The notes under the pieces were generated by a model. The model was not told the DNA's origin, did no database searches, and saw only the letters and a list, made by a program, of their open reading frames with translations. From IMG/VR virus record IMGVR_UViG_3300048588_001047, positions 1 through 38,627 of that record: DNA of 38,627 nucleotides; one strand, written 5' to 3'. Positions 30,026 through 31,952 of the stretch are shown here, piece by piece. Numbering within the stretch: the stretch's first letter is position 1; the number at the start of each line of letters is the position of its first letter. The stretch is from a virus. The position numbers and the translations under genes are program-made.

Positions 30026-30129
30026 TTGCCGTGAGATGGTTTGTGGTTTTCGTAGGCATCAACCCAAAGCGCCGATGTGATCGAGCGCAAGGTGATGCAA
30101 AGCATGAAGAACCGGGCGGCGCGTTTCAT
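30022..30129 (-). CDS. 35-aa gene coupled on both sides
   Basis: A tiny frame whose ATG overlaps the CII-like stop (ATGA) and whose stop overlaps the ParB-like start (ATGA). It codes MKRAARFFMLCITLRSIT... followed by a polar tail rich in His, Lys and Ser. The first half is amphipathic to hydrophobic with a basic start and could touch the membrane. Overlaps with both neighbours are the main support; no family is known to me. Confidence 0.6.
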   Translation of the reverse strand: MKRAARFFMLCITLRSITSALWVDAYENHKPSHGK

Positions 30130-30506
30130 GCCTTGATGCCGGCTTCTTTGAGCAGCGCCTGAAGCTGCGGCGCCAGGCTTGCGAGTGCGGACAGTGCCTC
30201 GCGCTTCTTGAGGTCGGAGTCGCAGCAGAACTTCTGCGCTAGGTACAAGATGGGCGTCGTGTCACCCGTCGATTCCACGTAGGCCTCAAGGTCCAGAACA
30301 GTGAACCGGCGCGGGTCGTCAGGGTTGCTGGCCAGCTTGCGCGAGAGGTCGGACTGGCTCATGTCCATGTCCATGGCAATCGACTTCAGCGGCTTCGCAT
30401 TGGCGTAGGCACCAGCACGAACGCACTCCAGCACGTTGTCGAACCGCTCTGTAAGGCCTGGGGTGAAATCCAGCGAGAGCTGGCTACTGGAAACTTGCGG
30501 GTTCAT
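30126..30506 (-). CDS. CII-like phage regulatory protein
   Basis: 126 aa. Helical HTH region MDMSQSDLSRKLASNPDDPRR (about 46-66) followed by FTVLDLEAYVESTGDTTPILYLAQKF, the pattern of the phage regulatory protein CII family (CP76-type), and a C-terminal helix that may mediate oligomerisation. Second gene after cro, as in lambda, so it is the probable activator of repressor or integrase expression during lysogenic choice. I chose the ATG at 30504-30506 because GGAAAG lies 11 bases before it; a GTG three codons earlier is also possible. Confidence 0.75.
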   Translation of the reverse strand: MNPQVSSSQLSLDFTPGLTERFDNVLECVRAGAYANAKPLKSIAMDMDMSQSDLSRKLASNPDDPRRFTVLDLEAYVESTGDTTPILYLAQKFCCDSDLKKREALSALASLAPQLQALLKEAGIKA

Positions 30507-30583
30507 TTGTTGCACTACTTTCCTTAAGCCATTCAGGCGAAAAAACGAGACTGGTGGCCATGACGACCCCCACCCTCATCGAT

Positions 30584-30805
30584 TCATTGCTCGGAGCCCT
30601 GCCCTGCGGCGTTGACTGCGGGCGCAGCCAGTTCGGCGGCCAGTTCGGGGTACCGGTTCTTTGCGACAACCCCCAACACTCGCTCCGCAATGCGGGGAGG
30701 AAGCTCGTCGGGCCACTTGTCCACTGCCTGGTAGGAAACGCCCATGACTTCTGCTGCTGCAGACACCGAGCCGCCGAGGATTTCAATGGCTTTTGACTTG
30801 TTCAT
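30584..30805 (-). CDS. Cro-like repressor
   Basis: 73 aa. A compact HTH: KAIEILGGSVSAAAEVMGVSYQAVDKWPDELPPRIAERVLGV (residues 5-46), with recognition helix around SYQAVDKW, as in the Cro family. It is the first gene of the leftward operon and divergent from the repressor. The ATG is at 30803-30805, right at the predicted transcription start, so the mRNA may have no leader. It should bind the same operators as the repressor and turn early transcription down. Confidence 0.85.
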   Translation of the reverse strand: MNKSKAIEILGGSVSAAAEVMGVSYQAVDKWPDELPPRIAERVLGVVAKNRYPELAAELAAPAVNAAGQGSEQ

Positions 30806-30809
30806 GGAC

Positions 30810-30851
30810 GCATTGAACCACGGTTCAATGCAGTCGTCAACTCAGGTTGAG
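30810..30851. promoter_or_regulatory. Repressor/Cro operators OR1 (strong) and OR2 (weak)
   Basis: OR1 at 30810-30831 is a perfect palindrome with 10-bp arms around AC, with the core ATTGAAC-CACG-GTTCAAT at 30812-30829. OR2 at about 30835-30851 keeps the core AAC-TCAG-GTT (30839-30848) with weaker flanks. The centres are 23 bp apart, about two helix turns, as for lambda operators. A third, weak AAC-CATG-GTT (30872-30881) lies in the first codons of the repressor gene, 33 bp further. Confidence 0.8.
30812..30840 (-). promoter_or_regulatory. Leftward early promoter (PR analogue) of cro
   Basis: Minus strand: -35 TTGACG (30835-30840), spacer of exactly 17, -10 TTCAAT (30812-30817). OR1 covers the -10 and OR2 the -35, so a bound repressor blocks polymerase. 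The expected start is near 30805. Confidence 0.75.
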
Positions 30852-30866
30852 TATTCCCGGCCTACC

Positions 30867-31310
30867 ATGCAAACCATGGTTGAAACTGTCTGGCATCGAC
30901 TCGAATCCATCATGGGGACCAAGCCCTTGACGGTCGTGGCGCTGCGCGACGCGCTGGGCTTCTCATTTCAGGCTGCTGAGAAAATCAGAAAGGGCGGCGG
31001 GCTTGGCCGCGAGAACCTGCTGAAGGTTGCTCACAAGTACAAGGTCGATCCCACGTGGCTTGCAACCGGCAAGGGGAAGCGCACGCTGGACGTTCCGACG
31101 CCTCCGCCTGCACCTGCTGCCGAATTGGGGCCGTTTGATGCCCTTACGGCTGAAGAGATCGCGTTCCTAGAAGACTTCCGGTGGTTGCTTGATTCGGACA
31201 GAGAACGCTACCGATCTGAAATCGCGGCAAAGGCAAAAGAGCTTCGCGAGCACATGGGCAAAGTCTTGGGCGACCTCCAGAAACCTGCATTGAAAAGGCC
31301 AAAAACGTGA
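30867..31310 (+). CDS. CI-like repressor without S24 peptidase domain
   Basis: 147 aa. XRE-type HTH (about 20-50: PLTVVALRDALGFSFQAAEKI) followed by VDPTWLATGKGK, a phrase usual in phage repressors. The rest is a Pro-rich linker (about 76-86) and a charged helix (about 92-135) and there is no LexA/CI-type peptidase domain or Ser-Lys pair, so RecA-driven self-cleavage is not expected. I use the ATG at 30867; an ATG three codons later is possible, and neither has a clear ribosome binding site, so it may be leaderless. Ends in a GTGA overlap with a lipoprotein gene. Confidence 0.8.
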   Translation: MQTMVETVWHRLESIMGTKPLTVVALRDALGFSFQAAEKIRKGGGLGRENLLKVAHKYKVDPTWLATGKGKRTLDVPTPPPAPAAELGPFDALTAEEIAFLEDFRWLLDSDRERYRSEIAAKAKELREHMGKVLGDLQKPALKRPKT

Positions 31311-31795
31311 ACCTAAACGCAGTGTTTATGACCGCTGCAGCGCTGTGCTGCATTGCGCTTTCCGGTTGCGCGCCACAGGTGTTGCAATCCACGCCTTTGC
31401 AGTCCTACCGAGTAGGCCAAGCGCTCAAAGCATCGCCAGGCGGGACTCTGTTGACCGCGCAAGCGGGCAACGTTCAGACCGTTCGCCGCTGGGTGGGCGT
31501 CATGAATTCCCCTGATGGGTGGAAAACATCGTCCGAGGTTTCAGCCGACTACGTGCGCAAGGAATTGATTTACTCGGGCGTGTCAGGCTCAACCATCGAA
31601 ATCACATACCGCGAATTCAGGGGCAACCTGGCCGCGCCTGCGTTCTTCCAAAGTGCAAAGTACGACCTTGCAGCTTCCAGAGAGATCACGTTTCAGCAGT
31701 TCCGCATCCGCGTTGACTCTGCCGACAACAACGGCCTCACGGGCGTTCTGTTGAGCGACGGCACATCGTTCGCAACCGGCCAGCCACCCAGATAA
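31307..31795 (+). CDS. Lipoprotein co-transcribed with the repressor
   Basis: 162 aa with a type II signal peptide: MNLNAVFMTAAALCCIALSG then Cys21 (lipobox LSGC). Residue 22 is Ala, so sorting to the outer membrane is expected. The mature part (about 60-155) looks beta-rich with no known motif. The GTG start overlaps the repressor stop (GTGA), so it is translated with the repressor in the lysogen, and a terminator follows. This is the place of lambda rexAB. Superinfection exclusion or another change of the lysogen surface is a good hypothesis, not shown. Confidence 0.8.
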   Translation: MNLNAVFMTAAALCCIALSGCAPQVLQSTPLQSYRVGQALKASPGGTLLTAQAGNVQTVRRWVGVMNSPDGWKTSSEVSADYVRKELIYSGVSGSTIEITYREFRGNLAAPAFFQSAKYDLAASREITFQQFRIRVDSADNNGLTGVLLSDGTSFATGQPPR

Positions 31796-31815
31796 ATTCA
31801 GAACCTGCCACGACG

Positions 31816-31841
31816 GCCCGCCGCTGAGCGGGCTTTTTTTT
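31816..31841 (+). terminator. Terminator of the repressor-lipoprotein operon
   Basis: GCCCGC / GCGGGC stem with a 6-nt loop (CGCTGA) and eight T at 31834-31841. It ends the lysogenic transcript 21 bp after the lipoprotein stop, before the rightward early promoter. Confidence 0.9.
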
Positions 31842-31870
31842 GTCCATTGTTTTCTGCCGTTCGTCGCCTT

Positions 31871-31912
31871 CGTTGAACCGTGGTTGCATCCTTTATTGAA
31901 CTGTGGTTCAAT
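31871..31912. promoter_or_regulatory. Repressor/Cro operators OL1 (strong) and OL2 (weak)
   Basis: OL1 at 31895-31912 is ATTGAAC-TGTG-GTTCAAT, the same perfect 7-bp arms as OR1. OL2 at about 31872-31889 is TTGAAC-CGTG-GTTGCA with one weaker half. The core AAC-N4-GTT centres are 31880.5 and 31903.5, 23 bp apart, the same as OR1-OR2. Confidence 0.8.
31884..31912 (+). promoter_or_regulatory. Rightward early promoter (PL analogue)
   Basis: -35 TTGCAT (31884-31889), spacer 17, -10 TTCAAT (31907-31912). OL1 lies over the -10 and OL2 over the -35, with the same offsets as at cro. The start of transcription should be near 31919. Confidence 0.7.
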
Positions 31913-31952
31913 GACTCCATCGCCTCACACCGAGGCCCACATGGAGAGCAGC

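Follow-up and report, generated by a model that had tools for sequence, protein, structure and literature searches.

In phage lambda, repressor bound at OR2 activates PRM from position -42, and OR1 and OR2 stand at a spacing similar to the 23-24 bp described below. The operators of phage P22 are 18 bp long with a 7-4-7 architecture and AAG-N4-CTT centres. Hall, Lefevre and Cordes reportedly proposed in 2005 (J Mol Biol 350:667; cited in PMC4488713) that Cro helices covary with OR half-sites. In N15 and phiKO2 five operators are known, three OR sites between repressor and cro and two OL sites (PMC4488713, PMC4997575). The immB operators of N15, phiKO2, and PY54 are 16-18 bp long with a T-A-(N)10-T-A motif, and OL lies upstream of repA; the Cro protein of phiKO2 does not bind to OL, while leaderless cI and cro mRNAs have been mapped in PY54 (PMC4488713, PMC4997575). 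P22 Cro/C2 and N15/phiKO2 are the closest known systems to the locus analyzed here, which lies in a stretch of viral DNA of 38,627 nucleotides (the window) and whose operator core sequences found no match in a literature search.

The layout of the locus is OR1-OR2-OR3 plus OL2-OL1, with the following features in and around it:

30584-30805, minus strand: Cro, 73 aa, P22-Cro-like, with the helix VSYQAVDKW
30812-30829: OR1, perfect ATTGAAC-N4-GTTCAAT (ATTGAACCACGGTTCAAT), core AACCACGGTT at 30816-30825, over the cro -10
30812-30840, minus strand: cro promoter, TTGACG (30840-30835), 17 bp, TTCAAT (30817-30812), then 6 nt to the cro ATG
30839-30848: OR2, AACTCAGGTT, 23 bp from OR1, over the cro -35
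30863-30868, plus strand: predicted PRM -10, TACCAT, 7 nt before the repressor ATG and lacking a good -35
30872-30881: OR3, AACCATGGTT, 33 bp from OR2, with the repressor start codon inside
30876-31310, plus strand: prophage repressor, 144 aa, HTH (SFQAAEK) and helical C-terminus
31307-31795, plus strand: lipoprotein with an LSGC lipobox, its start overlapping the repressor stop by 4 bp
31815-31841, plus strand: terminator-like hairpin with a T run, closing the repressor-lipoprotein unit upstream of OL2
31872-31889: OL2, GTTGAACCGTGGTTGCAT, core AACCGTGGTT at 31876-31885, 23 bp from OL1, over the PL -35
31884-31912, plus strand: PL promoter, TTGCAT (31884-31889), 17 bp, TTCAAT (31907-31912)
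31895-31912: OL1, perfect ATTGAAC-N4-GTTCAAT (ATTGAACTGTGGTTCAAT), core AACTGTGGTT at 31899-31908, over the PL -10

A sequence-only reading of this DNA had described the two perfect sites, each with a weak AAC-N4-GTT partner at 23 bp, and had placed the strong site over a TTCAAT -10 and the weak one over a -35 with a 17-bp spacer. Its coordinates and letters are exact, and the hexamers lie exactly where it had put them. Its four sites stand as part of the operator set, but the fifth, OR3 at 30872-30881, had been overlooked, and the repressor had been taken to be 147 aa long. The ATG at 30876, inside OR3, is the start conserved in relatives (MV...), and the repressor is therefore a protein of 144, not 147, aa. 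In letter statistics, the window holds 7 perfect 7-N4-7 palindromes (mean in shuffles, 3.9) and 3 occurrences of the pattern with at most three mismatches (0.54 expected), and two 7-N4-7 palindromes with identical arms, present here, were seen in none of 100 shuffles. OR2 and OR3 of the window depart from the family consensus.

We have little doubt that the locus serves a temperate phage as its immunity region, in which Cro and the prophage repressor would both recognize five T(G)AAC-N4-GTT(C)A operators with almost identical helices, OR1/OR2 and OL1/OL2 serving to shut the lytic operons and OR3 the repressor gene. OR1/OR2 and OL1/OL2 are fused to the -10 and -35 elements of two outward early promoters, so that their occupancy would exclude RNA polymerase and shut both lytic operons. 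OR3 covers the repressor start codon and the predicted transcription start, and its occupancy, by Cro or by repressor in excess, would shut repressor synthesis. The strength of the sites is probably graded from OR1/OL1 through OR2/OL2 to OR3, judging from the half-site types: OR1/OL1 mostly have two GTTC halves, OR2/OL2 have GTTG on the promoter side, and OR3 has two GTTG halves. Binding, this order of affinity, and the protein that would prefer OR3 are what we infer for the locus.

Cro of the window matched the Pfam family P22_Cro (PF14549) with an E-value of 4.2e-6 and a score of 26.9, below the curated cut-off of 30.2, and a profile of its relatives matched P22 Cro (1rzs; E 4.5e-4). Its predicted fold is of the all-helical P22/N15 type (five helices, mean pLDDT 86), with P22 Cro, Xfaso 1 Cro, and N15 Cro as top PDB matches (E 0.013 to 0.9), and the fold of the repressor head resembles 434 Cro and P22 C2; by E-value these fold matches are weak (best 0.013 for Cro and 0.026 for the repressor head). 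The recognition helix is common to both proteins, VSYQAVDKW in Cro against a family consensus of SYQAVxK in the repressor, and the window repressor (SFQAAEK) has Phe and Ala where most relatives have Tyr and Val. Pfam detected no S24 peptidase domain in the window repressor, which consists of the HTH head and a helical tail. Among eight relatives scanned, S24 is present in four (L007, L011, L029, and L033) and absent from four (L006, L012, L013, and L016), and the same operators thus serve both cleavable and apparently non-cleavable repressors.

With Cro as the probe, the search retrieved 39 viral loci and, from bacterial genomes of beta-proteobacteria (e.g., Variovorax, Ramlibacter, Achromobacter, and Comamonas), 7 more; the named relatives belong to the beta-proteobacteria (Burkholderiales). 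The repressor alone retrieved no relatives from viral contigs or phages, and no relative was found in the annotated phage collection. The exact 18-mer was also tried as a probe on viral contigs and brought up mostly unrelated ones, the pair being present in only four (L058, L061, L069, and L070) of the 80 read.

The OR series was seen in nearly all loci of the Cro search. In a nonredundant set of 38 loci including the window, from which near copies were removed, OR1 could be read in 37, OR2 in 35, and OR3 in 34, where it has the form AAC-N(A/G)TG-GTT. OR1 and OR2 are 23 bp apart in 27 loci and 24 bp apart in 8, and the spacing of OR2 and OR3 is mostly 33 bp (20 loci; 32-34 bp in 29). A second pair of sites, 22-24 bp apart, lies beyond the repressor in 33 of the 34 loci whose sequence continues for 1.5 kb or more past cro and in none of the shuffled loci, which excludes chance as the origin of the arrangement; L009 is the sole exception because its missing repressor gene puts the pair closer than the cut-off. 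A third OL site occurs in L003, L013, L017, and L020, and OR and OL may be as little as about 0.15 kb or as much as 4.4 kb apart. In 32 of 33 loci OR1 and OL1 have matching centres, a count that stands for few independent changes on the tree. Searching for the core at the same two places in relatives thus bears out the operators of the sequence-only reading, with OR and OL sites kept there. AAC-N4-GTT was itself the pattern by which these sites were gathered, which accounts for some of the invariance of AAC; the blind search described below made no use of it.

Among relatives the repressor and OL are separated by a cargo slot of variable size, from about 60 bp to 2.5 kb, which sometimes begins with a small lipoprotein or membrane protein; the lipoprotein of the window is presumably cargo expressed with the repressor. 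The folding energy of the terminator-like stretch behind it was no better than that of shuffles. On the other side, downstream of cro, a 129-aa protein (30126-30515, minus strand) resembles phage CII (CP76 family) just under the Pfam cut-off, and beyond it lie a ParB-like protein and then a helicase.

The promoters explain much of the geometry. Both TTCAAT -10 hexamers are weak matches without the usual A at the second position, and a strict sigma-70 scan found no promoter. In PL of the relatives, TTG of the -35 and TTnAAT of the -10 (at OL1) are invariant in 33 of 33 loci. At OR2/OL2 an invariant G comes directly after the right GTT and completes TTG of the -35, and at OR1/OL1 the right GTT is followed by nAAT, which gives the TTnAAT -10. 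The spacing of the sites equals that of the -35 and -10 because the right GTT half-sites form part of the promoter hexamers, 23 bp between sites corresponding to a 17-bp promoter spacer and 24 bp to an 18-bp spacer. The identical geometry of the two pairs, which had been read as mirrored design, is real, but no special mirroring logic is needed where half-sites are built into hexamers. Nor does the full 7-bp arm hold as the operator: at OL1 the right outer AAT is conserved in 33 of 33 loci and its left mirror positions in 100, 70, and 61% of them, so that the outermost AT of the palindrome represents -10 bases. The operator itself would be about T.AAC-N4-GTT.A, beyond which both strong sites of the window happen to be symmetric.

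Could the whole pattern be no more than the similarity of two related early promoters, with no operators at all? It is true that the GTT halves fall on the -35 and -10 hexamers and that the outer AAT belongs to the promoter. The left AAC halves, however, are found at every site although no hexamer includes them, OR3 matches no hexamer, and the half-sites follow the protein helices against a background of constant promoters; we find this explanation barely credible.

In the window the -10 lies 6 nt from the ATG for cro and 7 nt from it for the repressor; in most relatives the distance is about 5-7 nt, and for cro it is kept among them. Such short distances predict that both mRNAs start leaderless. 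The equivalents of the PRM -10 across relatives are TACCAT, TACTTT, TACGAT, and CATGAT. Past the PL -10 (window 31913-31925), where the cro promoter has its ATG, many relatives have NNNTCCATCGC or NNNCCCATC, and their PL leaders, folded singly, showed no common RNA structure.

In a blind test of the operators, any 3-N4-3 palindrome over the cro -10 was accepted and more distant Cro homologues were included. Where Cro has Lys before the Trp of its helix, the half-site is AAC in 41 of 44 loci, with no palindrome in the other three; Cro proteins without this Lys had AAC in none of 35 loci (AAG in 9, AAT in 2, TAG in 3, and none or other in the rest), and as these relatives share ancestry, the counts overstate the independence of the loci. 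The repressor helix in the same loci is YQAVxK with AAC, YQA(I/V)KR with AAT, VQAVGQ and similar with AAG, and SSSAVSQ with TTAGC. The OL pairs track OR, with AAG in L179, L201, L206, L207, L212, and L218 and AAT in L229. A recognition sequence of their own had been claimed for Cro and repressor, and this holds up, with sites kept in relatives and helices varying with the half-sites; comparison of the loci thus establishes not only positions, spacing, and conservation of the sites but also their covariation with both proteins.

It is very likely that both Cro and the repressor read these sites. That they are used by Cro alone, with the repressor binding elsewhere, we consider highly improbable. 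Cro is far better conserved than the repressor, whose use as a probe yielded no relatives, and two loci lacking the repressor gene keep OR1, OR2, OL1, and OL2; against this, the repressor helix is nearly that of Cro and varies with the half-site in the same loci, and OR3 is degraded precisely where the repressor gene is lost. These two loci, L009 (1-4270) and L010, are of the same phage type and carry cro, OR1, OR2, a terminator-like hairpin, OL2, and OL1 within ~170 bp, without a repressor gene and with OR3 degraded to AACCATGCGT. This looks like a natural loss of the repressor in which the lytic operators were retained.

Mixed half-sites were read by eye in a few operators, AAT/AAC in L175 and L229 and AAG/AAC in L182. 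We tentatively suggest that Cro, the repressor, and all five operators may switch their half-site together (AAC, AAT, AAG, or TTAGC) within a fixed geometry, the mixed sites being surviving intermediates of a stepwise path toward a new immunity specificity; the case for this is open to real doubt. As for the operator centre, Cro residue 5 (window 30793-30791, minus strand) is Lys in 14 of 14 cases with G as the second central base, and with A it is acidic or other in 22 of 23 and Lys in one. On the tree, three changes may be enough to explain it, and only one independent pair is well supported; this covariation is therefore an association only.

A new phage immunity specificity is a puzzle, as it requires concerted change in two proteins and five DNA sites. 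The relatives offer dozens of natural examples, with constant geometry, apparent intermediates, and few candidate specificity residues (the Lys before Trp in Cro and its counterpart in the repressor), which makes the question testable with small purified domains and short DNA. The immunity groups of such prophages should also be predictable from sequence.

Lambda OR/OL logic, which had been recognized in this locus from its letters, is partly supported, in outline only. The divergent cro and repressor genes with shared predicted operators between them, and a second set with the same recognition sequence at the other early promoter (33 of 34 loci), beyond the repressor and ahead of a recombination operon, resemble lambda, as do the strong sites over the promoters. 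The locus differs from lambda in having OR3 on the start codon, 33 bp between OR2 and OR3, two OL sites, another recognition sequence, another PRM geometry with OR2 near -32, and a repressor without the S24/LexA-type domain of autocleavage and cooperativity. The full lambda mechanism, with cooperative repressor dimers at OR and OL, a loop over 1.08 kb, and PRM activated by repressor at OR2, is in our view unlikely. Sites flank the repressor on both sides in nearly all adequate relatives and the OR1-OR2 spacing of 23-24 bp resembles that of lambda; however, the pairwise contacts of lambda repressor come from an S24-type C-terminal domain that is absent here, the centre of OR2 lies at about -32 from the predicted PRM start as opposed to -42 in lambda, and the OR-OL distance varies among relatives from about 0.15 to 4.4 kb. 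If a leaderless start is assumed, lambda-type activation from -42 is not expected with OR2 near -32. A DNA loop across the 1.08 kb might form, suggested only by the presence of the two clusters of sites.

The immunity region proposed here shares with N15 and phiKO2 the count of three OR and two OL sites and a Cro of the P22/N15 fold. It differs from them in its AAC-N4-GTT core, which is not of the T-A-N10-T-A type, and in its OL, which lies not upstream of repA but ahead of an operon of small ORFs and a YqaJ exonuclease. P22 Cro is the best PDB match of Cro by both sequence and fold, the repressor head is like P22 C2, and AAG-N4-CTT centres occur in several relatives with SAVSQW-type helices, while the window has AAC instead of AAG in its half-sites and Lys instead of Gln before Trp. 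Compared with the proposal of Hall et al., the repressor and OL are followed here in parallel, over many loci with a fixed geometry, and with a Lys-to-GTT rule. As covariation of helix and half-site was proposed in 2005 and N15/phiKO2 have the same operator count, the kind of system is known, and what this family adds to it is the recognition sequence, the fusion of operators with promoters, and a repressor and OL that vary in parallel.
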